A DNA stretch of 22,615 nucleotides from a virus, in the IMG/VR virus record IMGVR_UViG_3300033153_012581, positions 1 to 22,615 of that record; one strand, given 5' to 3'. Under the pieces are notes generated by a model. The model saw only the letters and a program-made list of their open reading frames with translations. It did not search any database and had not been told where the DNA came from. Below, piece after piece: positions 1 through 21,724 of this stretch (positions within the stretch are counted from its first letter, which is position 1; every line of letters starts with the position of its first letter). A program made the position numbers and the translations under genes.

Positions 1-713
1 CCTCCCTCCACTTCCTGGAATTTGTCGCGCAGGAAATGGCGATCTCTCATACCCAAAGACTTTACCATCTTCAGCGTTGGTTTTTCATCTCTAAGTAACT
101 CCAACCTCATCAAAATGGATTGAGACAGCGCATCGGACTTGTGTTTCTGACGACGACGGAGTTTTGACATATTCGCCTCGTCCACGCCAGTCGACACTCG
201 GAAACGCGCCGACGTGCCCGAAGGGAGAGTGACATCGTATACTCGCTTCATGGGATCAGGCATCGGTTTCGCTTGAAGCTCTTCGTCCAAATCCACCATG
301 AACAGCGTGGTAACCCCGCAAGACGGGCACTTCTCTCGTACCGGTAGTTCGTCTCCCAACGTCACCCGGCGAATCGAAAAAACAAGGAAAACTCGATCCC
401 CTACGGTGAGATCCTGTAAAATGCCAGAAATTATCCCCGAGTTGTCCTCTGTCCCAATCCTGGTAACGCACCCGCTCAACAAGGATGATATCTTCTGCGC
501 CGATGGTATGTTCTCAGAAGCGAGCATATCCTCTTCGTAGCCTGTTATTTCTCGAAGCTGCACCTCCGTGACCAGCTCCATGGTGGCGGGATCGATGTAG
601 CCGCAGGGCAACTCGAATGTGCCGACCACTGACTTCGGCGTCTCCATCTGATTGACAACGTGTGTGCGCTCAATCGCGCCTCCAACGGGCTCCGTCGTTT
701 CGTTCTCACTCAT
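1..713 (-). CDS. Tail assembly / baseplate-type protein (partial, runs off left edge)
   Basis: The ATG at 713-711 follows a strong AGGAGGACGAGG ribosome site and overlaps the previous gene's stop by 8 bases. The frame is open for 237 codons to the window edge, so the C-terminus is missing. Visible motifs are LPCGY (35-39), LREITGYEED (53-62), LTVGDR (102-107), RRVTLGD (115-121) and a CPSCG knuckle (129-133). From memory of the families, this order (a 'ReltGyEEd' segment, a 'GDR..L...R..T.G' segment, then CPxCG) is typical of phage tail-assembly/T4 gp26-like proteins that sit just before the tape measure; I could not run a profile search. A lysine/arginine-rich helical region follows residue 180. 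The position after the tail tube genes fits this role. The assignment is inference and the existence of the gene is secure. Confidence 0.7.
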   Translation of the reverse strand, partial: MSENETTEPVGGAIERTHVVNQMETPKSVVGTFELPCGYIDPATMELVTEVQLREITGYEEDMLASENIPSAQKISSLLSGCVTRIGTEDNSGIISGILQDLTVGDRVFLVFSIRRVTLGDELPVREKCPSCGVTTLFMVDLDEELQAKPMPDPMKRVYDVTLPSGTSARFRVSTGVDEANMSKLRRRQKHKSDALSQSILMRLELLRDEKPTLKMVKSLGMRDRHFLRDKFQEVEG

Positions 714-1278
714 GTCCTCGTCCTCCTACTATTCTCTTGGCCTCTGCCTCGTACATCCGAATCAGCCCTTTGAGAGTCCCTGTAACGGTGACGCCATCAC
801 GATCTGTGATAGCCTTGAAGCAATCATACATCTCGCGATCCACCCACACGTTCACCTTCACGTCAGATCCTCCGTCCTGGTACATGCCGAGATCGTCGAA
901 TTGATTCGAGTCCGTAACGAACTTCGTCATGAGAAAACGAATCAGTGCCGACACACTCCGAAAACCATAGTCGGAGGCTAAACCATTTTTGAGCTTTCGG
1001 TGCAGCTCCTGACTCACAAAGAAGTTGATCGGGCGAGTTCGATCCCCGGAAGCTGCTGGCACCTTCCCTCGGATGTCCCGTGCCAGCTCGCACGCTCGAC
1101 ATAGCAGTGTGCCGTTGCTGACTACTTCACGCCCTCCCGAATCTTTGGGTACGATCATCTGCACCTTCAAGCGATCAGTCGATCCGCAATTCGAGCACTT
1201 CCCCCCGCAAGCCTCTCGGACTCTCGAAGTCCACGAGGCTTGCCTGTCCTCTGATGTCACCTTCAGAATTTCGTCCAT
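706..1278 (-). CDS. HNH-like zinc domain fused to two ribbon-helix-helix-like segments
   Basis: The start is an ATG preceded by AGGAG at 6-base spacing. Residues 18-70 form a treble-clef HNH-like fold with C28/C31 and C60/C63 zinc pairs, the 'IVPKDSGG' turn and N55. The usual HH of HNH nucleases is replaced by Q40-M41, so metal-dependent cleavage is doubtful. Two later segments, about 82-120 and 139-182, each have a short beta strand (INFFVS; VNVWVD) followed by two helices, the layout of ribbon-helix-helix DNA-binding modules. The protein could therefore bind DNA as an intramolecular RHH pair, for example as a late regulator, rather than cut it. It lies between tail genes, a common place for HNH-type inserts. 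The zinc domain is clear; the RHH reading and the function are inference. Confidence 0.7.
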   Translation of the reverse strand: MDEILKVTSEDRQASWTSRVREACGGKCSNCGSTDRLKVQMIVPKDSGGREVVSNGTLLCRACELARDIRGKVPAASGDRTRPINFFVSQELHRKLKNGLASDYGFRSVSALIRFLMTKFVTDSNQFDDLGMYQDGGSDVKVNVWVDREMYDCFKAITDRDGVTVTGTLKGLIRMYEAEAKRIVGGRGHE

Positions 1279-1351
1279 AATCCACTCCTTTTACTGCATA
1301 TCTGATGTAAAGCCAACCGCTCCTTTCCCTCGGAACGTCGACTGATCGTCC

Positions 1352-1531
1352 TCATTTCTTTTTCTTCTTGTCGGGTTTCTTTACTGGCTTGTAGGGAGGA
1401 ATTGGCGGGCGCAGAGGCTCCCCCAACGGTGTCTCGTACCCCCCAACACCTGCTGAGGTAGTTTGCTCATGCTGCTCACGATTGCGACGAAGTACCTTCT
1501 CAGTATCCAGTGTCTCCCATTCTTCGCTCAT
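1352..1531 (-). CDS. Small Pro/Lys-rich protein, unknown (59 aa)
   Basis: A 59-residue frame starts at ATG 1531-1529, 3 bases after the stop of the tube-like gene, with GAGG about 8 bases upstream. It begins MSEEWETLDTEKVLRRN, has a proline-rich centre (PLRPPIPPYKPVKKP) and ends in a run of five lysines before TGA. It fills the gap between two well-supported genes and is translationally coupled to the previous one, which supports it as real. No family is recognised. The charged N-terminal helix and basic tail suggest a small virion or assembly peptide, but this is a guess. Confidence 0.6.
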   Translation of the reverse strand: MSEEWETLDTEKVLRRNREQHEQTTSAGVGGYETPLGEPLRPPIPPYKPVKKPDKKKKK

Positions 1532-1534
1532 GAT

Positions 1535-2314
1535 TTACCTCGTCGATGGTGTACGGGCAGCGTCTCTTATGGCAGAACCTAGAGCTACCGGAGCCGCGTC
1601 GCTGCCTAGAGCCAACTCATCCCAGGACTCTACAGCAATCTCTAGCTCCTGGATGGAAATCGCGCCGTCGGTCGCGTCGAAGTCTCCCGCTGGCTTGTAT
1701 CGGGCTGGAATACAGCCATAAAGAACCCACGCTTTGGCCGGCATACGAGGCGTAAATTCAAAAGGCCCGAGCTGTACCCCTAATCCTGACGCCGCAGCGG
1801 CCCCCTGAATGGCTGCAGCGTGCTCCGCGTACCCTCGAGACCCTAGGCTGGCTGCGCCGCCTGTGAGGGCCGTAGAGGTGCCTTGGAGCGCGAGTATGCC
1901 AGAGGCAGCCGCCCCTTGAGAGTATCCAGGAGGTAGCGGGCTGCGAGATAAAAAGTGTATGAGAAGCAAATCGCGCCTAGGAGTCGCCCCTCCAAGGGCC
2001 CCAGAGTTCCGTCCCCCATGTCCGCCGGTAGTACCTGCAAGAGCAGCAAGCGCCCATCGATAGAAGTCGTTATCATACCACTTCGACGCCCGCATCAGCG
2101 TCATGTTACCGGCATCTCCGCCCTTCACGATCTTCCGTTTGAAGAACCAGTTGGCTTCTGTAATCTCTGTGATCTCGATATTTATCTCTGGAGCTGTGAT
2201 CGCGGAAAAACCAAGAAGGGGTGTAAAAAGCGGCTGAGCCAAAGGCTCTATCGGCGCAATGTCCATAAGACAGAACGGATAATTCTGGAGATAATCTGTT
2301 AGTGCGCTTCGCAT
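1535..2314 (-). CDS. Second tail-tube-like protein (gp19-type) with Gly/Ala-rich insert
   Basis: The 259-residue protein has the two conserved ends of gp19-type tail tube proteins. The N-terminal half (about 44-94) has EINIEITEITEANW and a 'MTLMRA..WYDNDFYRW' segment like the tube beta-hairpin and helix. The C-terminal part (186-236) has W196, 'IPARYKPAGDFDAT' and 'ISIQELEIAVES', matching the tube signature 'W....P..y...dlDAt...isi.eLei'. Between them, about residues 95-185 is a Gly/Ala/Ser-rich insert (for example GGRNSGALGGA, AAAIQGAAAASG) with no counterpart in a normal tube. It starts at ATG 2314 after the terminator. Such a paralog could form a tube-initiating or baseplate-proximal ring under the main tube; that role is inference. 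The insert may be surface exposed or flexible. Confidence 0.7.
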   Translation of the reverse strand: MRSALTDYLQNYPFCLMDIAPIEPLAQPLFTPLLGFSAITAPEINIEITEITEANWFFKRKIVKGGDAGNMTLMRASKWYDNDFYRWALAALAGTTGGHGGRNSGALGGATPRRDLLLIHFLSRSPLPPGYSQGAAASGILALQGTSTALTGGAASLGSRGYAEHAAAIQGAAAASGLGVQLGPFEFTPRMPAKAWVLYGCIPARYKPAGDFDATDGAISIQELEIAVESWDELALGSDAAPVALGSAIRDAARTPSTR

Positions 2315-2340
2315 ACGTCAACTCTTAGGTAACGCCTCTC

Positions 2341-2378
2341 ACGGAAAAGGCCACGCACCCGAAGGCGTCGTGGCCTCT
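2341..2378 (-). terminator. Rho-independent terminator after the tail tube gene
   Basis: On the minus strand an 8-bp perfect stem AGGCCACG/CGTGGCCT is extended, past one bulged A, by 4 bp (CGCC/GGTG with one G-U pair) closed by a TTCG tetraloop. It is followed directly by TTTTCC. It starts about 10 bases after the tail tube stop (2387). It would end or attenuate the transcript carrying the abundant sheath and tube genes, lowering expression of the second tube-like gene and those after it. Confidence 0.85.
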
Positions 2379-2386
2379 TTCCCTTA

Positions 2387-2638
2387 CTAGGCGCGGATGA
2401 TCAGGTTGTAGTACTCGTATGACAAATCCAACTCCATGATGGAGATTTCGGATGCTGTCGCGTCAAGATCGCCTGCCACCTTGTGCCGTATCGGGAAAGC
2501 GTTGAATACCTCGTAGGTCCTCGCCGCTTCCTCGGTTGTCGGAATACCCGTCAGATTCTTGTTGACGTCTCCACTACCAGGAAGTGCCTCTTCTCGGTGA
2601 TAGTGCTTGATGCGAAGATCTTCCCGATAATTCCCGGC
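2387..2638 (-). CDS. Tail tube protein, C-terminal part (in the -1 frame)
   Basis: This is the continuation of the tail tube gene, in the -1 frame relative to its start. The frame is open from about 2752, but the homologous part begins near 2638. It encodes 83 residues including YEVFNAFPIRHKVAGDLDAT and ISIMELDLSYEYY, the hallmark C-terminal half of gp19-type tubes. An in-frame ATG (2752) lies in the overlap and would give a protein without the tube N-terminus, so independent expression is unlikely. Joined to the N-terminal part at the G run, the product would be 160 residues, close to the 163 of T4 gp19. The stop TAG is followed by the terminator. Confidence 0.75.
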   Translation of the reverse strand, partial: AGNYREDLRIKHYHREEALPGSGDVNKNLTGIPTTEEAARTYEVFNAFPIRHKVAGDLDATASEISIMELDLSYEYYNLIIRA

Positions 2639-2868
2639 CCCCTCGCCAACGAAATGTCGGCAAATGTAGTGTTCCCCGGTTGCTTTCTGGTGTAGATGTA
2701 CGTCCCCTCCTTGTACTCCACTGGTTCTACCGTTGGCTCCGGTACCGAGCACCGTGCGAATCCGGCCTCCGGAGGTCCAAGCCTGTCCGTTGACGGTGCT
2801 GATCCATCGATGACTTCCACGTGAAAACGCATCGAGTGGAGAAAGTCTTCTGCTACTGGCCGTGCCAT
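2551..2868 (-). CDS. Tail tube protein, N-terminal part (gp19-type, frameshifted)
   Basis: The ATG follows AGGAGG at 6-base spacing. Residues 1-77 (MARPVAEDFLHSMRFHVEVI..., then YIYTRKQPGNTTFADISLARG) match the N-terminal half of contractile-phage tail tube proteins. In that family 'F.v.i' starts the first strand and 'it..RG' ends the hairpin. After residue 77 the frame continues for 28 residues that do not look tube-like, then stops. The expected C-terminal half lies in the -1 frame. The subunits stack as hexameric rings inside the sheath to make the DNA conduit, so the truncated form should not be functional. It lies between a small virion protein and the terminator. Confidence 0.8.
   Translation of the reverse strand: MARPVAEDFLHSMRFHVEVIDGSAPSTDRLGPPEAGFARCSVPEPTVEPVEYKEGTYIYTRKQPGNTTFADISLARGPGIIGKIFASSTITEKRHFLVVETSTRI
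2634..2646 (-). other. Frameshift point in the tail tube gene (run of five G)
   Basis: In the start frame the minus strand reads GCG AGG GGG CCG GGA. Re-reading one base after GGG gives GCG AGG GGG GCC GGG AAT and joins the two tube halves as ...LARG-AGNYRED.... This is consistent with loss of one G from a homopolymer (a real mutation or a sequencing error). It is also consistent with -1 slippage, since GGG can re-pair on GGG. Confidence 0.75.
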
Positions 2869-2934
2869 TTACAGCCTCCTGTTACCTCAATAGTACAACA
2901 ACACCATCAAAAAGATCGAATGAGCTTTCAGTGA

Positions 2935-3282
2935 TCAGGTGATAACGCCCGCGGCATCGCGCCACGCCGCGCCATCCGACCAATTTAAAGCATTGTCATC
3001 GGTGTTCCAGATCGCCGCGAATATCGGCCACGCTGTCGCCGCCGGTCGCGTGAGGTCCGCGAAGGCCGGGTGAGGCTCTGTACCGACCTGAGCATTGTCC
3101 CCGTCTTCTTCCGCGAAGGAAAGAACGATCGTGCCAGCCTGGATGAGCTTCTTCAGCTCTTGCTCTTGGTCCAGCTCGGACCTTGACTTGGAGACGGTGA
3201 CTGCGCCACCAGGAACCAAGTTTTTGTAAAGCAGGCTGACGAATACATCAACTGCGGATGCGTTCGTGAATGTTACCAACAT
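2935..3282 (-). CDS. Small virion protein between sheath and tube, unknown
   Basis: The 115-residue frame starts at an ATG 6 bases after AGGAGG. The N-terminal half (MLVTFTNASAVDVFV..., then LVPGGAVTVSKSRSELD) is predicted mainly beta with a charged turn, and residues 50-60 (GTIVLSFAEED) form another strand. The C-terminal 30 residues contain 'IWNTDDNALNWSDGAAWRD'. The pattern 'W-N-x6-8-W-x-D-G-x-x-W' recurs in many phage tail fibre and virion surface proteins as a short beta element. Its place between sheath and tube suggests a structural or adaptor protein made at high level with them. I do not recognise a specific family. Confidence 0.65.
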   Translation of the reverse strand: MLVTFTNASAVDVFVSLLYKNLVPGGAVTVSKSRSELDQEQELKKLIQAGTIVLSFAEEDGDNAQVGTEPHPAFADLTRPAATAWPIFAAIWNTDDNALNWSDGAAWRDAAGVIT

Positions 3283-3341
3283 TTAGTGCCTCCTACTTGC
3301 TCGTCAATCTCACAGATCGTGTCGACTCCGCCCAGCTAACC

Positions 3342-5054
3342 CTATGAATCTAAAGTCTTTTGCTGGAATCTGAAGCGCACAAATTCTGCAGGCTTGTTCG
3401 GCGCAATACCTACGTCGATGATGACCTGCCCCGCGTCGATGGACGACTGATCGTTATTCGATTCGTCCACTGTCACAAAAAATGCTTGCGACGGGGTTGT
3501 CCCTGCGAAGAGCCCGTCGTTGAAGAGATTGGTCAAGAAGCCCTGAATCTGGGCTTTGATCCTCGCCCACAGCCCCGGACCATTGTTCTCGAACACGATC
3601 CAATGCGTGGCATTGTATACCGACTTCTCGACAAACATGAAGAGACGTCGAGCATTGATGTACCGCCACTCGCTTTGCAGTGACGTGGTTCGTGCACCCC
3701 ACACCGCTAGACCGGTCTGAGGTCCAGACACGAGCGGATTGATGCGCGCTGGATAAACCACATCACGCTCGCCCTGGCTGATGGAGTCGATCTCCAACCC
3801 AACGAGGAATCGAAGGGCTCCATCCACAGTGCCAGCAGGCACCTTGCCCACATTCCGGGTCGAATCCGTGCGTGCATAGATACCTGCAATGTGCCCGAGA
3901 GGTGGGAACACTACGGGACGATTGTCCGCGAGAGGATCGGCGACCTTTACCCAAGGCCAGTACATCGCTGCAAACTTTGAGTTCTGCACGACATCGAGCC
4001 TTAGGAAGTCCACCGCCTCTTGCGCTGAAGACCCCTGGGGAACCACGAGAAGAGCGAAGCGATCTCCGCCGGAAGGCAGTACCTCTCGGCTATCCACGTA
4101 ATCCAGCAGGTCCTTGGTGATTTGGATGTCTCCGGCGAAGTCGGGAATGACCACCTGCATCAGCTCTTCGATCTTGTTCAGCGCATAGAGTCCCTGGAAG
4201 TTCGGCTCCAAGATGATCGATGTGAACTGGTCTCGTCCATAGTTAGCAGCATCGAACGTACCATCCGTTCCGCCTGCGAACCCGTCGAGATGGTTATCCT
4301 CCTCCGACGTGGAGCGGTACACCGCCGCCACGAGCTGGTCTTGCTCGATCACATTCGAGAGCAATACATCCACTGCCCCCGTTGTGTAGTCGATGGTGTT
4401 GTTACCGGCGACATCAACGTCCCCGATAAGATTACCAGCCCCGTCATCGGTGATGCTCCGAGCGGTTCCAGTGTCGTCCGTCCAATCCAATTGGAATGAA
4501 CGTGGAGAAATCGGGAGATCGAGAAGAGTGGTAGCAATGGCTCGGTTACCCACCACCTCGTCTCCACCGGCTACGACGAGACTTCTCGCCTCTCCATTGA
4601 GGCTTTGCGGGCCCTCTGGGGTCAGCGCGGGTTCGGTAACATCCACGAGGTCGGAGAGATCGTTGAGCACGTCGGGGAAGTACTGTGCTGACGTGACATC
4701 AGTGAAGGTGATCTCCTCGTAAGTCTCCAAGATGGCGTATAGCCCGGTCGAAGGATTGAGCAAACGAACGTTGATGTTGAAACGAGTGTAGGTATCGGTG
4801 ATGACATCGTAGTAGTCATCGTTTCCAATAACCTCCACCTTCATGTCGTTGGACCACGTACCGACCGAGACCGGACCAAGATCCCACGCTTCAATGCCGT
4901 AGGCTACCAGTACCGGGCAATCTGTGCCTGGCTCGTACCCCGCGTTCACTGTGAAGGTGTAAGCTCCCGAGGTGTAGGTGATCGTGCCAGCAGCCGCAAG
5001 AACAGCGCCCGTATCCGGAAGGGCTCCGCTGCCGTCGTCAACTACCGAATACAC
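3342..5054 (-). CDS. Tail sheath protein, C-terminal part (after in-frame TAA)
   Basis: This 570-residue stretch is in the same frame as the gene before it and is separated only by a TAA and five sense codons. Its second half is a classic contractile sheath C-terminus. Signatures are FAAMYWPWVKVADP (361-374), PPLGHIAGIYARTDSTRNVG (384-403), 'GLAVWGARTT' (448-457), 'YINARRLFMFVEKSV' (465-479), 'FENNGPGLWARI' (488-499) and the final strand 'PAEFVRFRFQQ' that hooks to neighbouring subunits. Two copies of a 'DDGaGn...GtIdYttGA' beta module lie at about 1-50 and 187-247. The first codon shown is a GTG with only a weak AGG upstream, so separate initiation is uncertain. With readthrough the whole sheath would be 851 residues, larger than T4 gp18 (659). 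Confidence 0.85.
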   Translation of the reverse strand: MYSVVDDGSGALPDTGAVLAAAGTITYTSGAYTFTVNAGYEPGTDCPVLVAYGIEAWDLGPVSVGTWSNDMKVEVIGNDDYYDVITDTYTRFNINVRLLNPSTGLYAILETYEEITFTDVTSAQYFPDVLNDLSDLVDVTEPALTPEGPQSLNGEARSLVVAGGDEVVGNRAIATTLLDLPISPRSFQLDWTDDTGTARSITDDGAGNLIGDVDVAGNNTIDYTTGAVDVLLSNVIEQDQLVAAVYRSTSEEDNHLDGFAGGTDGTFDAANYGRDQFTSIILEPNFQGLYALNKIEELMQVVIPDFAGDIQITKDLLDYVDSREVLPSGGDRFALLVVPQGSSAQEAVDFLRLDVVQNSKFAAMYWPWVKVADPLADNRPVVFPPLGHIAGIYARTDSTRNVGKVPAGTVDGALRFLVGLEIDSISQGERDVVYPARINPLVSGPQTGLAVWGARTTSLQSEWRYINARRLFMFVEKSVYNATHWIVFENNGPGLWARIKAQIQGFLTNLFNDGLFAGTTPSQAFFVTVDESNNDQSSIDAGQVIIDVGIAPNKPAEFVRFRFQQKTLDS

Positions 5055-5069
5055 ATCTGTACCTGGCGT

Positions 5070-5072
5070 TTA
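5070..5072 (-). other. In-frame TAA interrupting the tail sheath gene
   Basis: On the minus strand the codons read CTC GAT TAA ACG CCA GGT ACA GAT GTG TAT. Both flanks are open and in the same frame, so a single substitution (for example CAA to TAA) explains it. The stop falls in a linker just before a 'VVDDGSG' beta module, not at a domain end. TAA also ends the capsid, acidic head and second tube genes here, so it is not globally reassigned in this genome. Confidence 0.85.
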
Positions 5073-5897
5073 ATCGAGGGTGATCGGCGTGCCATCATCA
5101 CCAAGGATAGGCCGATCTGCTCCGATGAACGTTATGGTGATGAAGCCCGTCACGAGATCGATCTCGGCAGTCGAGACCGCTGCTCCGCCTGTACCGGCCG
5201 CTCGGAGCGTCGTGCCCACCTGAGTCAGATTGATGGTCTGGGCACCGCTGGCCTGGTCGAGCCAGTTCAGTGTGATCGTTCCACCGGGTATGATGCTCGG
5301 AAGCCCAGAATCGACCCCATCGCTGGGCATGGACGTGACCGCACGTCCCTCGTAGTGGGAGGACGGTACCGCGTCGTCGGGGTGTCCGACCGTATCCTGC
5401 ACGAGCGGAGATGTCCCGTCGCGCTGGAATAAAGGCTCGGTCACGACGGGCGCGTCATCCGCACGCCACCGGAAGGTGACACCGGCTGTTGCTGGAATAC
5501 CAACGACAGGGAAATCAGCTAACACCGCACCGACGGGATCGGTATCGGTAACGATAACCTTGATACCGTCGCCTACGAAACACGAGAAATCTCTTCGAGC
5601 GCTCGTGATGTCCCCATCAGCCTCAACAGCGTCTCCTGGCATGACTCGCACAACGTAGGCCCTTCGACCACCGTTAGAGAAATACGCGGCCATAGAAAGA
5701 CCGGTACGCGAGTCTGCAATCAGATCACCAAAGATACGGGTGAACTGTGAAAAGGACGTAACCAGAGTAGCCTCGTCTGTGGGCCCTCTCTGTGTCGCGC
5801 CGATAATTCCCATGTTTGAGGTAGAGACCGGCTGCACGACCTGAACGGCGCTCGGCACCTCTTCGATAAAAACGCCGGGTGATAGAATTTCAGCCAT
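5070..5897 (-). CDS. Tail sheath protein, N-terminal part (ends at in-frame TAA)
   Basis: The ATG lies 9 bases after AGGAGGG. The opening MAEILSPGVFIEEVPS and then 'TSNMGIIGATQRGPTDE' (27-42), 'SFSQFTRIFGD' (48-58) and 'YFSNGGRRAYVVRV' (72-85) are the standard N-terminal sheath signatures: the chain-linking N-arm and first core domain. After about residue 110 comes a longer beta-rich domain ending with a probable copy (206-266) of the module repeated in the second half. The chain stops at residue 275, before the C-terminal core needed for the contractile lattice. By itself it lacks the strand that completes the neighbouring subunit. Either the TAA is read through, the halves assemble together, or the gene is broken or misread. 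Confidence 0.88.
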   Translation of the reverse strand: MAEILSPGVFIEEVPSAVQVVQPVSTSNMGIIGATQRGPTDEATLVTSFSQFTRIFGDLIADSRTGLSMAAYFSNGGRRAYVVRVMPGDAVEADGDITSARRDFSCFVGDGIKVIVTDTDPVGAVLADFPVVGIPATAGVTFRWRADDAPVVTEPLFQRDGTSPLVQDTVGHPDDAVPSSHYEGRAVTSMPSDGVDSGLPSIIPGGTITLNWLDQASGAQTINLTQVGTTLRAAGTGGAAVSTAEIDLVTGFITITFIGADRPILGDDGTPITLD

Positions 5898-12781: not shown

Positions 12782-14497
12782 CTAGTCTCTGATACCCGCT
12801 AAGTGTTTCAGACTTGAAAGAGATGCTCCAAGGCCGTTGTAGTTCTGCGCCCCGCCGCCACGACGACCTGCGGATTGAGTCTCTTCTTCCAAGTATTCTC
12901 GACCTCCATGAAGTCGAGATCGAACACGAGATCGAACGTCTTCTAAATCGTCCACATCCCGCATGGGTTCTCTAAAGTCTTCGATCAGTTCATCCACCTG
13001 CTCTTCGGATCGAATTCCAACCCGTTCCAACATGCGAAGGATCTTCGCACCTTGTGGATGAGTTTGCAACCTCTTGGCTGCGTGCATCTGTAAAGCAAGA
13101 TCGCGGTTCGCTTCAAGAGCCTGCTCGAGGCCCTCTGCCAACTTGTGATTCTTCTTCTTCAGTCGCTCTGATTTTTCTAGCTGGATACGGTGCGCTTCTT
13201 CCTCCTCAATCCGAAAAGCCCGCATCTCTTGGTCGGCCTCTTCCACCCGCTCACGTAAGGCGTCAGGACTAGCGTACTGAGACACATCCCCTACAATCGC
13301 TCGAACTCGATCTGTATCAGAGTCGCTTTCATGGAGTAAGCACTCCAGGTGGTACTTATACCCTGCCTCTCGCGCCGCCTCAGTGAGCTTCTCGATCAGC
13401 TCCTCTTGCCCCTCTACCCGCATCTCGACGTCTTCAAGCTGTGATCGTAGTACTCGTATCTCAGCATCTCGCTCCGCGATGAGAGCGTTAGCATCCTCAG
13501 TCAGTGTGAAAGGCAAAAGCGCGTTTCTCACGCTCTCCAACGCCTTCACAGACAATCCCAGCTCCGGATCGTTTTCCAGCTCCTCACGGACCTGCTTCTC
13601 TACATCTGCCCGCTGCTCCGTGATTCGAGAGACGATCTCTGTCGCAAACTCTTTGCGAAGATCTTCTGCAGTGATTCCACTACCTTCCGCATCTGCGAGA
13701 ACAAGGGCAGCGAAACGCTTAGCCAGCTCGGATTCGTCCGGAGCCCCTACTTGTGGCGCACGATTCTCTTCTTCCTCTTCTTCCTCTTCCTCTTCCTCTT
13801 CCACAGCGTCCGAGTCGTCGTCCTCTTCCGAGGAATCGTCAGAGCCATCGTCAACGCCAGCGATCCCGGCCGCTGTGTCTTCCTCAGAAGCTACTTCCCC
13901 TTCTTCCATCGTGACACCTTCGAACATCATGGTCACGCCTTCTTCAGCGCTCTCGAACACCACCTCAGGGTAAGCGGTTGGATCCGCCGGTTCAGCCACG
14001 AAGTCGAAAGTGACGAGTTTGTAATCGTCCTGAACTTCCTCGATACCATCTCGCAGGGGTTTGGTGCTGCCGTATCCTCGAGAGCTAATTCCTACCGGAA
14101 CACCGGCCTCCAGAATAGCCTTGAGATCGCGACCCTTCGCTGTGTTCAGTATCTCGGCTTCTCCGATAACCTGGTCGCCTTTCAGCTTCAACGCTGTGAT
14201 GACGTGAGAGGCTCTCTGCAGAGCAGTACGACCGTCAGAAGGATGATCCAGCTCCCCCAACACCTTCCGAGACTCCAAATTGGCGTGAAGCCTGGAAATG
14301 TTGTTCTCCCAAATCGAGTGCTTGTAAAATCTACCATTTGCTGTGGGATTGGCCGCGTGGCCGAATTCTCCACGAGCAAACACACGACCCTTCTTGTCGC
14401 CGCTCCCCTCGAACAGCTCGAGTGTGCAGTACTTGATCTGCTCATCAATAAGCTGATTCTCTGTAGGGGAGGGAGTTGAAGTCAGAGTTTTTGTCAT
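12782..14497 (-). CDS. Prohead protease fused to scaffold-like region (gp21 + gp22 type)
   Basis: The 571-residue protein begins with a T4 gp21-type serine protease. It has 'GRVFARGEFG' (37-46), 'LGELDHPSDGRT' with H85 as the likely catalytic histidine, 'GVPVGISSRGYGS' with a catalytic serine at 138-139, and 'VTFDFVAEPADP' (162-173). From about residue 195 the chain becomes very acidic (EEDTAA..., SSEEDDDSD, then 12 glutamates at 233-244). It ends as long charged helices with heptad character (about 350-540), as in scaffolding cores. It would build the inner core around the portal, then digest it during maturation. The start is ATG with AGAAGGG about 10 bases upstream. T4 codes these two functions in separate genes, so the fusion is a notable variant. 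Confidence 0.85.
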   Translation of the reverse strand: MTKTLTSTPSPTENQLIDEQIKYCTLELFEGSGDKKGRVFARGEFGHAANPTANGRFYKHSIWENNISRLHANLESRKVLGELDHPSDGRTALQRASHVITALKLKGDQVIGEAEILNTAKGRDLKAILEAGVPVGISSRGYGSTKPLRDGIEEVQDDYKLVTFDFVAEPADPTAYPEVVFESAEEGVTMMFEGVTMEEGEVASEEDTAAGIAGVDDGSDDSSEEDDDSDAVEEEEEEEEEEEENRAPQVGAPDESELAKRFAALVLADAEGSGITAEDLRKEFATEIVSRITEQRADVEKQVREELENDPELGLSVKALESVRNALLPFTLTEDANALIAERDAEIRVLRSQLEDVEMRVEGQEELIEKLTEAAREAGYKYHLECLLHESDSDTDRVRAIVGDVSQYASPDALRERVEEADQEMRAFRIEEEEAHRIQLEKSERLKKKNHKLAEGLEQALEANRDLALQMHAAKRLQTHPQGAKILRMLERVGIRSEEQVDELIEDFREPMRDVDDLEDVRSRVRSRLHGGREYLEEETQSAGRRGGGAQNYNGLGASLSSLKHLAGIRD

Positions 14498-14734: not shown

Positions 14735-15601
<867 letters not shown>

Positions 15602-16462: not shown

Positions 16463-19324
16463 TCATTTGGCCGCCGCCACAACTTCTCGAAGAAGTGCAC
16501 CTACTTCCTTGAGACGTCTAGCCTGAAGATCGTTAGCCTTCATGAGGCTCTCGAGCTTCCCATCAGCTCGTTTTTCAGCCTGCTTGTTGCCTCGGAGTAG
16601 CTCTTGCTCGGAGATGCCTCCACGCAATTTCATTGGAAGCGCGTTCAACTTCCTCTCAATCAACTTCAAGCGTGAAGTGGGGGATACTCCCTCGGCACCG
16701 CCTCCGGCCGCCGGTGGCTCCGCCGCTGCTTGAGCCATGGCACTGAGTTTTTCTACCTCAGCCTGTGCTTTGCCTTCGCGAATCACATCCTCGGACCGCT
16801 CCTGCACGATGATCCCTATGTCTTCGTTAGAGAGTTGGTACACATTCTCTAATACCCATCGCAACGAAACATGCTCTCGCATGCGTGAGGCAAGGTCCGC
16901 TCTTGCATTCCGCACCTCGAGCTGCGCCAGCTCGAAAATGGCCGACGGCACGGTCATGTGAATGTTGTATTCGTTCGCATAGGGGTCGATGTTCAAAGCG
17001 GCGAGATGTGTCCGAGCCACTTTGCGTAGTCCGTTACGAACCTCTCGCTGAACACGAAGAATGGATCGGGCGAAGCGAACATCTTCACTAGAAAGCACTG
17101 CTCGCGCTGTATTATCGTCCTGGGCCAGGTACGCTTTGGGTACCTTCAGCGCGGTGAATAATTTAGTCTGAAAATATTCAACATCGTCCATGCTATTGGA
17201 AACAAAAACACCCGCCCCGATGGCGAAGTTATGGTGACCTTCTACTGTAAGATCATACACAGCCTCACGATCTTCAGTTTTCCGCACAAAAACAACAGTA
17301 TGGTTGGTAGCAGACAGCGCTCGGCCTTTGGGCCTCCACCCGGGTATATTACGAGCCGCAAAAACATTCCATGTGAGCCCTTCGGCTTTCAACACGCGGT
17401 CTATAACGCTCTGAGACACTCTCCCACGGTGCATCAGCTCTTTAATATTTCGAGCCCCTGTAGCTAGCACCAAATACGCCAAGTCATCGGCAGAAAGATC
17501 TCGCCACCTGGGATTTCCAGCGCCTCGAATTCGACTTCGATGATCCTCGCTCCTATTCCACTCAGCGAGAACGTGCGCCTTTTCTGCCCGCGCAACCTTA
17601 TCCCCCATGCGCTCAATCATCATCTCTCGGTGCACACCCTTGCGGCTTTCGGTCCATGAAGCACGGAGCTTACGACGTCTTGCTGGACTCCTACTTGCTT
17701 CTCTCGCCTTTGCTTTTGCTTCTGGCGTGTGCATGAACTTTACAGCCTCTGAGTGCTCACGGGCATGTTCCTTCCGATTCACCGCCTTCAGGTTCTCCGG
17801 ATTATTATCTGTTTTCCTGTGGTTGACGTGGTGTATAACACCTCCGCTCGCCCAGACCACCTTCGGGTCTCCATGCAAAGATTCGTAAACACGATGATGC
17901 GTGTAAACGAACTTGTCTTTTTTCGGATCATAGACCTTCTCGTACCCAGTTAGATAGTCACCCCTGCCCCTGCTCGATTCCTTTCGATATAAAGGCATGA
18001 GAGAATCCCCAGGTCGAAGATGCTCCGCCATGGACCACTTCCCATCACGACTCAGGAAGGGATGATTACCAGTGCACCTTATGACTTCTCCGCTATCCAA
18101 CCCTACTTCCCAAATCTCGGCTGACGTGTGTGTCCTACGAGCCGCTCGACCTAGTCCAGGAACCACCTTCCCGCTCTCGTTCACTGAATAAAGCCAGAAC
18201 TCCCCTCCACGCGTAACCAGCTCTCGAATAGTTGGTTGCGTCCCATCCAACAAAGGAACCCGTGTGCTTCCTGCCAGACACTGCCAGCTCGGACCGCCCA
18301 ACACCTCGATGCGGGTACCCTCTACTCCCTTGCGAACCGGCACCCAAAAGTCCTCGTCCTGGGCCAACGGCTCGAATTTCATGTCGAGTTTTCCCGTTGA
18401 GGGGTTCACAAAACGCTTCTTTTTATGCTGCTGCCGAATCTTATTCACGAAGGCTAGGGCTTCCGCCGGGGGGAGATCGCCTACGTCAACATAAAAAGCA
18501 AAACGCTCCGGTGCTCGCTGAAGTCGATAGATCATCGCAGCGTCTTCGAGCAGCATGAGCCGCTTCCATATCCATCGGGCGGGCTCCAAAACCGAGTACC
18601 CATAAATACTCCGGCGGTGCTTCCCGCGGAGCCTGAAATGAGCCACTTCCCAAGGTTCCAACGCGGAGACGCGTTGGAGAAGGTTACCAGGGGGTCGGGC
18701 CGCTCCCGGCTGCGTTGTCTGCCGAATGGCATCAGTTCTTTGGGCGAGGATCTTCTGAAATTCCTGCGGAGAATATCCAAAACGACCTTTAAAGTCTTGG
18801 ACAAAACCGTACAGCTCCCCACGGGGACCTTCAACCCGTCGGACTGTCGGCGCTGGCAGGAAATTCAATCCCACCACCCCGTCCTTGGTTACCAGCATCT
18901 CCTCGTAATCATTTCCGTACTTAACTAAGGAGCGGACGATTTCCCAAATTTCCTCATCAAGACGAAGACGCTTGTAGAATAGGTCATCGAGTACGCCTTG
19001 AAGAGTTTTATCTGGACTTGATATCCAAACCGTGCGTTGAAGCTGGGTGTCAGGCTGCGAGGCATCGTCAGCATAAATATCCAAAGACGACGCCATTGTG
19101 GGTTCGTCGTCCATTTCCTCATAGTCTACATAGCGGCTGATCAGATCATGCTCTAGTCGGAGGTAATCCGACAAAGCATCGTAGCCATAGGCTTGAAGTA
19201 GGTCATACCCGGAGTCAGGATATGTGGGAGAAGTGCTTCCCTTAGCGAGTAGCTGCCCGCCGCGCTCTTTGTCCGAAGCGAACGCCCCGCGAAGGCGATC
19301 GATGACGTTTTGTACAGCTCCCAC
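16463..19324 (-). CDS. Portal protein (T4 gp20-like), intein-containing precursor
   Basis: The start is GTG, overlapping the previous TAG by one base, with GAGGGG just upstream. The precursor is 953 residues. The flanking parts are a gp20-type portal: 'YEEMDDEPTMASSLDIYADD' (68-87), 'KYGNDYEEMLV' (135-145), 'RSIYGYSVLEPARWIWKRL' (238-256), and after the insert 'MDDVEYFQTKLFTALKVPK' (712-730) and 'FARSILRVQREVRNGL' (751-766). The C-terminal part is helical. Residues 349-710 are an intein, so the spliced portal is 591 residues, near the T4 size of 524. It forms the dodecameric ring at the head vertex, the DNA gate and terminase dock. Because the portal needs splicing to work, late head assembly depends on intein activity. 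Confidence 0.93.
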   Translation of the reverse strand: MGAVQNVIDRLRGAFASDKERGGQLLAKGSTSPTYPDSGYDLLQAYGYDALSDYLRLEHDLISRYVDYEEMDDEPTMASSLDIYADDASQPDTQLQRTVWISSPDKTLQGVLDDLFYKRLRLDEEIWEIVRSLVKYGNDYEEMLVTKDGVVGLNFLPAPTVRRVEGPRGELYGFVQDFKGRFGYSPQEFQKILAQRTDAIRQTTQPGAARPPGNLLQRVSALEPWEVAHFRLRGKHRRSIYGYSVLEPARWIWKRLMLLEDAAMIYRLQRAPERFAFYVDVGDLPPAEALAFVNKIRQQHKKKRFVNPSTGKLDMKFEPLAQDEDFWVPVRKGVEGTRIEVLGGPSWQCLAGSTRVPLLDGTQPTIRELVTRGGEFWLYSVNESGKVVPGLGRAARRTHTSAEIWEVGLDSGEVIRCTGNHPFLSRDGKWSMAEHLRPGDSLMPLYRKESSRGRGDYLTGYEKVYDPKKDKFVYTHHRVYESLHGDPKVVWASGGVIHHVNHRKTDNNPENLKAVNRKEHAREHSEAVKFMHTPEAKAKAREASRSPARRRKLRASWTESRKGVHREMMIERMGDKVARAEKAHVLAEWNRSEDHRSRIRGAGNPRWRDLSADDLAYLVLATGARNIKELMHRGRVSQSVIDRVLKAEGLTWNVFAARNIPGWRPKGRALSATNHTVVFVRKTEDREAVYDLTVEGHHNFAIGAGVFVSNSMDDVEYFQTKLFTALKVPKAYLAQDDNTARAVLSSEDVRFARSILRVQREVRNGLRKVARTHLAALNIDPYANEYNIHMTVPSAIFELAQLEVRNARADLASRMREHVSLRWVLENVYQLSNEDIGIIVQERSEDVIREGKAQAEVEKLSAMAQAAAEPPAAGGGAEGVSPTSRLKLIERKLNALPMKLRGGISEQELLRGNKQAEKRADGKLESLMKANDLQARRLKEVGALLREVVAAAK
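17195..18280 (-). mobile_element. Intein with HNH homing-endonuclease domain in the portal gene
   Basis: This is a 362-residue insert in portal residues 349-710. It starts with C349 in block A (CLAGSTRVPLLDG). Block B is TGNHPF (418-423). The C-terminal blocks are 'VYDLTVEGHHNF' (689-700) and 'FVSN' ending at N710, followed by extein S711 as the +1 nucleophile. The penultimate residue is Ser709, not the common His. Residues 471-525 hold an HNH endonuclease, with H498-H499, N507/N508, 'NPENL' and H520. After it come a basic stretch (about 545-605) and a helix-turn-helix-like segment (about 612-650) that may read the target. Removing it joins GPSWQ to SMDDVEYF, the conserved portal segment, which is a typical homing site. 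Confidence 0.92.
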
Positions 19325-19705: not shown

Positions 19706-21724
19706 CTAGTGCTCCCAGCCTCCTCCAGAACCTACCAAAAATGGTGGAAGCGCTGTTAGGTCCGACACTGTCTCCTCAGCGTCCTCGCTGCCATAACTCC
19801 GTGCCAGTGCGGCCTGCTGATGCTCTAGCATCCACGCGTCCCCATGATCAGGCGCACTACGCAAAATCGCCAGTGGGAGGCTGGAAGAGTTTTCTGTCAG
19901 TGTCCACGTTATTCCGGCCACCGCATCTGCGATATCTTTTTTCCCCCGTAAAGGATGGTCCACCTTGCGTTTGACACGATCGTGCTCTAACTCTCGCAAC
20001 TCTTGGAGGAGCGGAGGGTAGTCGTAGTAGTGCAACCGATCCTCGTAAAGAGCAGTCTTGAGAAGATCGTAGGGCCCCATCGTGCGATCAACCGACAACT
20101 GGACGGCATTGAATCCCCTCTGGTTCAGCTTCTGAATAGCATCGGCAGAATTCCACGAGTCGATAGAGACACAGGTTATCACATACCCATGCTTAGAGAG
20201 CTGGTAAACAAGCTTTCGGACATCCCCTAGGATGATCTCTCCTCCGACAGGAGGCACGATCCTCAACGCCACGTCTACTGTTATATCGGGAGCCCTCTCT
20301 GGATACTTGTTTCCTTCATCGTCCCGTCGTACCACCTCCACCCATCCGGAGACATGGCCCATGGCAAAGCCAGTGGAGTCGCTTGTCAAAGAAGGATCAA
20401 TGTGGATGTGCCGGGGAGCGTAGGGATTAATTATAGGCCTCTTACCCCCCTCTGCGTCATTGGCGGGGCGGATCATCTTGTGCCAGTAGAACTTCCCAGG
20501 TTGCGAGGGATCGTAGACCTCAACGCTGAAGGGATGTTTCATATCGGGGCGTATGGCATCGATGATCTTTGTCCTGCGCTGAATGTACGGGCTTACTGAT
20601 ACCGTAGCCACACCGGCGAGATCGCGAATGGCCCCTTCCAAATCCTTCTCGAAGTCGATATAGAAATCTTTAGGAACATCGATCACCACGCAGTCCTCAG
20701 GAAGAATAACCTTCACCTCTTCGATGTCTTCGTTCTCACCTACAATGCGACTGGGAGCCTGCTCGTTACCCACTATCACGTGAAACCAATCACCAGAGTA
20801 GTAGTCTTCGGGCTTCGTGTGCCACAACGCGTAGTCCCGAACAAATACGGTAGGATCTGTGAGCGACTCTTTGATGCGTCGTGCCGTGAAATCATCGTTC
20901 GTCTGCTTCGAGGACACAACGAATAGGATGCCAGGCAGCCGTCCTTTGCGCTCAAATCGAGATTTCATCCGTCGCTGGATCGCGTTGTAAAGAACTTCAG
21001 CCCTATCCTGTAAGTTGAATCGAGGATCTTGCCCTTTACTAGCCTTGGGCATGAAATTTGTCTCATCCAAGAGACAGCTGATAACATTTAAACCAAGGAC
21101 CGAGCCATCGTTACTCGCCCTTGCAGCTACCCAAACCTTGCGGGGGAACCGCAGCTCCTTCTTCGTCTTCTCAAACGGAAAGTTCTCTTGAAAATAAGGG
21201 CTGGCCTCGATCTTCGTTGCGATGTTCTCGTAGGCTACCTTGGTCGCCAAAATTTCGTTGACCGATAAGCAGACAATCGAAATATTCGAGTTCGCCGCAA
21301 TACCGACAGATCGATGAGGATCGCGCATGCAGCTCAAGATGTATAAAAGCCTACAAATTCCTATGCTTGCGGCAAAAGTTTTTCCTGTGCCGATCGCTCC
21401 CGTGAACACAGCCTCTCTGTAGCTGTCTGAAAAAATTTCGGTCAGGTCCTCCAACCATGTGGGATACACGGTGTCGCATGTATTCCCCAGATAATAGGGG
21501 TCCATGCAGAATGTCTTCATGTCTACTGGTGTGCGTATCCACTCAAGGTCGCCGAGAGTGTGAAGCAGATCAGCGCTGCCAACGGGATCAAGCATCTCGG
21601 CCGCAATGGCCTCGATCACCTCACGCTCCCCAGGCGTTAGCGTCTCCAGATCCCTCTCGAGTAACCCTGTGCTCTCCTGTGGGGTCCTGACGGACCTCCA
21701 GTGCCCATTATCGTATTCGATCAT
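19706..21724 (-). CDS. terL: Terminase large subunit
   Basis: The 672-residue packaging motor has an N-terminal ATPase and a C-terminal RNase-H-like nuclease. Walker A is GAIGTGKT (109-116), Walker B ends in 'SCLLDE' (216-221) with E221 as the catalytic glutamate, and the coupling motif is 'VVSSKQ' (269-274). Nuclease acidic residues are D443 (HIDPSLTSD), D522 (VSIDSW) and D597/D600 (KKDIADA). The length is similar to T4 gp17 (610). It docks on the portal, pumps DNA using ATP and cuts the genome at the start and end of packaging. It begins 7 bases after the stop of the putative small subunit with a weak ribosome site, so it may be coupled. Confidence 0.95.
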   Translation of the reverse strand: MIEYDNGHWRSVRTPQESTGLLERDLETLTPGEREVIEAIAAEMLDPVGSADLLHTLGDLEWIRTPVDMKTFCMDPYYLGNTCDTVYPTWLEDLTEIFSDSYREAVFTGAIGTGKTFAASIGICRLLYILSCMRDPHRSVGIAANSNISIVCLSVNEILATKVAYENIATKIEASPYFQENFPFEKTKKELRFPRKVWVAARASNDGSVLGLNVISCLLDETNFMPKASKGQDPRFNLQDRAEVLYNAIQRRMKSRFERKGRLPGILFVVSSKQTNDDFTARRIKESLTDPTVFVRDYALWHTKPEDYYSGDWFHVIVGNEQAPSRIVGENEDIEEVKVILPEDCVVIDVPKDFYIDFEKDLEGAIRDLAGVATVSVSPYIQRRTKIIDAIRPDMKHPFSVEVYDPSQPGKFYWHKMIRPANDAEGGKRPIINPYAPRHIHIDPSLTSDSTGFAMGHVSGWVEVVRRDDEGNKYPERAPDITVDVALRIVPPVGGEIILGDVRKLVYQLSKHGYVITCVSIDSWNSADAIQKLNQRGFNAVQLSVDRTMGPYDLLKTALYEDRLHYYDYPPLLQELRELEHDRVKRKVDHPLRGKKDIADAVAGITWTLTENSSSLPLAILRSAPDHGDAWMLEHQQAALARSYGSEDAEETVSDLTALPPFLVGSGGGWEH

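Follow-up and report, generated by a model that had tools for sequence, protein, structure and literature searches.

A predicted class 1 HNH intein in a T4-type phage portal gene and the insertion positions of its family in related portals

The portal gene of the virus contig analysed here in its whole length (22615 bases, hereafter the window) is interrupted by a segment that we consider, with a probability of about 0.93, to be a class 1 intein that carries an HNH homing endonuclease, excises itself from the portal, and spreads to empty alleles of this gene. The comparison with related viral contigs points, in addition, to the T4-type portal gene as a hot spot for the intein family to which the intein of the window belongs.

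The portal gene and its genomic context

The host gene of the intein is a T4-type (gp20) portal gene, and the Portal_T4 match agrees with the original prediction (Table 1). Its reading frame is open along the full length and encodes a precursor of 953 aa that includes the intein and would yield a portal of 591 aa once spliced. Pfam finds the Portal_T4 domain of this ORF in two pieces, and a profile of the portals of relatives matched 3JA7 and 6UZC at about 1e-41. Since a gene of TerL-like terminase (19706-21724, PHROG 2), as well as those of a prohead protease (Peptidase_S77) and the major capsid protein Gp23, both identified by Pfam, are located near the portal gene, the window represents a part of a T4-type head module. 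When the portal gene was compared at the DNA level with the phage collection, no match was obtained, and therefore no cultured near relative is present in that collection.

The prohead protease (12782-14497, minus strand) contains the Peptidase_S77 domain at residues 35-183 and a long, acidic, coiled-coil-like C-terminal part; because the protease and the scaffold of T4 are encoded by separate genes, it may be a protease-scaffold fusion. Near the protease gene, an extremely acidic protein is encoded (14735-15601, minus strand), the Asp/Glu runs of which come from short triplet repeats, and which is possibly a prohead core protein.

Table 1. Features of the interrupted portal gene (coordinates of the window)
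Feature	Coordinates	Strand	Details
T4 gp20-type portal gene	16463..19324	(-)	GTG start; Portal_T4 1.9e-64; PHROG 213 portal
N-extein	18281..19324	(-)	portal residues 1-348, last residues GGPSWQ
Intein	17195..18280	(-)	362 aa, Cys1 to Asn362, precursor residues 349-710
N-terminal half of splicing (HINT) domain	17969..18280	(-)	intein residues 1-104; block B T70-G-N-H73
HNH_3 endonuclease motif	17759..17908	(-)	intein residues 125-174 (IHH...NNPENL...EH)
Helical segment, possible helix-turn-helix target reader	17348..17491	(-)	intein residues 264-311; AlphaFold2
C-terminal half of splicing domain	17195..17305	(-)	intein residues 326-362; block F VYDLTVEGHHNFA, block G GVFVSN
+1 Ser codon of C-extein	17192..17194	(-)	
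C-extein	16463..17194	(-)	from SMDDVEYF on: stem helix a7, tunnel loop, C-terminal domains, stop codon

Anatomy and class of the intein

Pfam, AlphaFold2, and Foldseek agree that the HINT splicing domain of the intein is split by an inserted domain. The Pfam family Intein_splicing matches the precursor at 1.5e-19 (residues 357-710) and the intein alone with an E-value of 1.2e-20 (intein residues 9-362). In the AlphaFold2 model, based on an alignment of 51 inteins, the mean pLDDT is 88.7 and the values for the splicing domain are mostly 93-98; the best PDB matches of this model found by Foldseek are the DnaB, DnaE, and RecA inteins. These results bear out the presence of an intein in the portal gene, and the boundaries that had been proposed for it (17195-18280) correspond exactly to Cys1 and Asn362, that is, to residues 349-710. 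The two flanks of the intein join without a gap to the uninterrupted portals of relatives, which are 591-595 aa long, and the predicted 591 residues of the spliced portal agree both with these lengths and with the ORF arithmetic. Together with the Pfam E-values and the fold indicated by AlphaFold2 and Foldseek, this ungapped joining places the intein far beyond chance. A single-sequence search with the window intein found no relatives, and alignments were required to find them.

The set of class 1 residues is complete and includes C1, T70 and H73, the Asp and His of block F, N362, and Ser+1, which adjoins Asn362 and is followed by MDDVEYF. Cys1 and the His of the block B T-x-x-H motif (H73) are invariant in the 51-member alignment. 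The sequence and the predicted fold thus both assign the intein to class 1. The triplet of class 3 inteins consists of W at B:12, C at F:4, and T at G:5 (PMC7664689, PMC7891396). In the window intein, these positions are occupied by Phe, Asp, and Val, respectively, and the presence of Cys1, the Asp at F:4, and the lack of the WCT triplet rule out its class 3 identity.

We propose that the 953-residue portal precursor is translated and that the intein would then cut itself out to leave the 591-residue portal, with an N-S acyl shift at Cys1, transfer to Ser+1, and cyclisation of Asn362 as the probable chemical steps. Weak PT-HINT and Hint matches were also obtained with Pfam for the intein, and could be expected of a BIL or hedgehog-like HINT domain that cleaves without splicing and leaves the portal in split pieces. 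We find this explanation extremely improbable, as Cys1, Asn362, and Ser+1 are all present, the flanks join into a single conserved portal domain, and the DNA channel needs an intact portal chain.

Position in the portal and the HNH domain

Profile alignment and mapping place the insertion after residue 357 of T4 gp20 (357/358), directly before the MEDIRWF helix. According to the cryo-EM study of T4, the channel loop comprises residues 350-359 and the second stem part residues 359-377; this well-conserved loop constricts the DNA channel (PMC4493910). Therefore, the intein is located in a DNA-contacting loop, at its end, in keeping with the insertion into a conserved portal segment that had been postulated. 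Inteins are typically inserted at essential, conserved positions.

The HNH_3 match in Pfam (2.4e-6) covers residues 473-522 of the precursor. Residues H150, H151, H172, and H176 are invariant across the 51 aligned inteins, and N159 is present in more than 90% of them. All invariant HNH residues are retained in the window, and by this measure the HNH motif inside the splicing domain is intact. The nuclease domain of the original prediction is upheld by these residues and by the HNH_3 score, which exceeds the Pfam cut-off.

A helix-turn-helix-like segment had also been proposed downstream of the HNH motif. This proposal is plausible: the AlphaFold2 model contains four helices in the helical segment, with pLDDT of about 90. 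A Pfam search with this segment of the window gave no match, and helix-turn-helix matches were found only in relatives, namely a weak one at the corresponding place in L020 and helix-turn-helix families in several aligned inteins. The segment may be a target reader. Elsewhere in the window (706-1278, minus strand), a stand-alone HNH protein is encoded, the C-terminal part of which has a weak ribbon-helix-helix (ParG) match; this is a possible free-standing homing endonuclease.

Occupied, empty, and reduced alleles

The insertion site, referred to below as site 348 in the numbering of the window portal, is found in three states. Uninterrupted portals, 74-88% identical to the spliced window portal, are encoded by 12 near relatives from IMG/VR (L006-L016, L027), and DNA alignments over the joined flanks are gap-free at the insertion site, so that the empty sites anticipated in homologues do exist. 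The same intein is present at the identical site in five further contigs (L131, L231, L298, L299, and L300), although the copies of L298 and L299 end at a contig edge. The L131 intein is 70% identical to that of the window over 362 aa, with no gaps. In L300 (3579-4346), about 100 residues including the HNH motif are absent, while the splicing blocks and the helical segment are kept. Empty, full, and nuclease-deleted alleles thus coexist at site 348, as the homing cycle predicts. In such a cycle, the HNH domain would cleave insert-free portal alleles close to the channel-loop codons, and both the intein and the adjoining Ser+1 codon would be copied during repair.

The +1 residue is informative in this respect. 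Among 124 distinct empty segments, Asp is found there in 37, Ala in 30, His in 15, Glu in 13, Gln in 12, Met in 8, Asn in 4, and Ser in three, with single occurrences of others; Cys and Thr never occur. By contrast, Ser+1 occurs in all occupied alleles with a readable +1 position. The empty alleles of the window's own clade have His+1, except for L017, which has Ser and no intein and may be an allele that lost it. Either the Ser codon was brought by the intein through co-conversion, or invasion is restricted to rare Ser alleles. A similar pattern was described for the haloarchaeal MCM-d intein, where Ser is present at invaded sites and mostly Pro at uninvaded ones (PMC10643990).

There is no direct sign of recent horizontal homing, because the divergence of inteins (identity of about 52-70%) and that of exteins (about 41-80%) are roughly parallel among the six site-348 contigs. 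A recent homing trace was also sought in the flank DNA, where identity within 40 bases of the site was 69-78% for every compared relative and no donor-like stretch was found. This parallel divergence, the mostly empty state of close relatives, the HNH_3 score barely above the cut-off (25.6 vs. 24.8), the Asn in the HHVN stretch of the window where many family members have Asp, and the example of L300, in which the HNH part was lost, could all be explained by a splicing-competent intein kept by vertical descent, the HNH endonuclease of which is no longer active. We regard this explanation as unlikely, though deserving of attention. None of the family-invariant HNH residues is changed in the window, and Ser+1 is suggestive of a gain through co-conversion and not of long-standing inheritance. 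Moreover, between the window and L131 inteins pN is 0.21 and pS 0.81 (pN/pS rather than true dN/dS, since synonymous sites are saturated), and the values are about equal in all domains, which indicates that the HNH part, like the splicing part, is under purifying selection.

In the tree, the site-348 inteins form a clade with SH-aLRT support of 100. The nearest clade, with modest support (81), consists of HNH inteins located at the nuclease-domain site of TerL (residue 594), which are the closest non-portal relatives of the window intein. They belong to the same family and are 42-48% identical to the window intein over a part or the whole of it (e.g., L017, L144, and L147), but differ in the host gene and in the penultimate His, which they have kept. 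The same TerL residue holds inteins of this family in many related phages and is empty in the TerL gene of the window. In the L272 group, site 348 is held by inteins of another clade, and for this reason at least two invasions of the site are probable.

Two TerL genes deserve separate mention. The TerL encoded by the L017 ORF at 1226-5200 is 1325 aa long and contains two inteins, the larger of which splits the P-loop (GCGK/C...HN/TFAAS), while the HNH intein occupies the nuclease-domain site. In L005 (Streptococcus phage vB_SagM-GXN1, 1753-4723), the TerL intein is apparently interrupted by stops, and a C-terminal splicing block is encoded by an ORF of its own that precedes the portal gene; the intein may be split or broken, or may contain an intron.

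Penultimate residue

The penultimate residue, correctly predicted as Ser (Ser709 of the precursor, Ser361 of the intein), is not the His that is typical of class 1 without being strictly required. The assumption that this Ser marks slow splicing is not supported. His is penultimate in 61 of the 149 portal inteins, and other residues in the remaining 88 (Lys in 58, Cys in 7, Ser in 6, and Arg in 5, among others), and the choice tracks the insertion site. At site 348, Ser is also present in L131 and L231, and His in L300. Phage class 1 inteins with Gly, Lys, or Ser in place of the penultimate His have been described, and the change of the natural Gly to His slowed the splicing of a mycobacteriophage intein (PMC5050341). 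Because non-His residues are common and the published His mutant was slower, the penultimate Ser is no evidence of slow splicing.

Inteins of T4-type portals

Viral contigs from IMG/VR were scanned with alignments of portals and of inteins, and inserts were mapped by a spliced alignment that allows for a long-insert state. Of 225 non-identical portal ORFs, 102 carried insertions; these were 151 intein-like insertions at 31 exact positions, from 68 to 382 in the numbering of the window portal. A single insert is carried by 65 ORFs, two by 26, three by 10, and four by one. Clustering left 90 carriers and 132 inteins, still at 31 positions. Alignment jitter may have split one site into some of the neighbouring positions, and about 20 remain when those only a few residues apart are grouped. 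The most used position is site 320 in the clip domain (62). In the clustered set, 65 inteins are assigned to the clip, 37 to the wing, 13 to the channel loop, 11 to the tunnel loop, and 6 to the stem domain of T4; the insertions accumulate mainly in the clip, in the channel and tunnel loops, and in conserved segments of the wing. As many loci were fetched by intein queries, the census counts are uninformative on frequency. An N/[STC] junction was found in 149 of the 151 insertions, which is not independent evidence, since the mapping of sites rewards such junctions. Cys1, present in 129 of 149 portal inteins, is also mildly rewarded by the mapping; it and the intein profile matches weigh more than the junction count. 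The ORF of L221 that starts at 836 (1907 aa) has four inteins in one portal (sites 78, 243, 320, and 382), and examples of the ten portals with three inteins are those of L131, L132, L136, L190, and L002.

The view of portal inteins as a rarity has to be abandoned in the light of this hot spot and of the portal (PORT) inteins known in cluster C1 mycobacteriophages (PMC5050341). The latter resemble the intein of the window in being inserted in a phage portal, but occur in other phages and in another lineage of the host gene. Haloarchaeal MCM inteins a-d resemble the gp20 family in the use of several sites in a conserved gene, some of them lining a DNA channel, but occupy four sites in a replicative helicase, compared to 31 positions in a virion protein (PMC10643990). 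In the literature searched, which extended to freely available papers, no title or abstract concerned an intein hot spot in T4-type portals, and any priority is therefore tentative.

Head assembly is initiated by the portal, and between one and four inteins are retained in many portals. Conditional splicing, documented for mycobacterial DnaB inteins (PMC6195587, PMC7360933), might accordingly be imagined as a regulatory switch that times head assembly by redox- or metal-dependent maturation of the portal. Such a role seems quite improbable to us. Most relatives are intein-free (inteins are present in 1 of 76 and 6 of 41 loci in the sets retrieved with portal queries), and the wide variation of sites, sequences, and penultimate residues fits mobile elements better.

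Inteins with Pro at position 1

In 16 of the 149 portal inteins, at sites 133, 320, and 346, Pro is present at position 1 instead of Cys; a seventeenth Pro1 intein, in L236, ends in Gln. Residue F:4, which is the nucleophile position of class 3 inteins (PMC5050341), is Cys in all 16 Pro1 inteins with an alignable block F. The lack of Cys1 and the F:4 Cys are thus shared by these sisters of the window intein and by class 3 inteins (PMC7664689, PMC7891396); however, the Pro1 inteins do not have the full WCT triplet, as its Trp and Thr are mostly missing. Position B:7 is mostly Ala in these inteins, and the loop that connects blocks F and G is extended. Copies of this kind are located in L131 (2735-3916), L181 (2313-3512), L136 (2051-3367), L228 (4001-4993), and L229 (4001-5191 and 5273-6469), and further carriers are L232, L235, L236, and L238. 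The AlphaFold2 model of the L131 Pro1 copy has a pLDDT of 92. A contig scan of the genome collection with a Pro1 intein found no relative.

The Pro1 inteins are nested among Cys1 relatives, 26 of which already have Cys at F:4. In the trees, the Pro1 state appears at two places, and a single Pro1 group is not rejected (AU p = 0.33). We do not claim a convergent origin, given this value and the F-G loop and mostly Ala at B:7 shared by both groups. The series from Cys1, through Cys1 with F:4 Cys, to Pro1 suggests a possible two-step path toward a class 3-like form. Published engineering work reportedly considered such a transition out of class 1 unlikely. We cautiously favour the view that the T4-type portal is among the most intein-invaded genes known and that, within this family, Cys1 gave way to Pro1 with block-F Cys via intermediates with both Cys1 and block-F Cys.

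Conclusions

Phage portal inteins and HNH inteins are known, and the intein of the window extends this kind of element by a further site and host gene; the portal family is of greater importance. An essential virion gene with 31 insertion positions constitutes a natural data set for the choice of sites, the coexistence of neighbouring inteins, and the limits imposed by the +1 residue, and the series leading from Cys1 to Pro1 is relevant to the question of the origin of class 3 inteins. For annotation, metagenomic portals of 700-1900 aa are to be regarded as spliced genes and not as fused or broken ones to be discarded.
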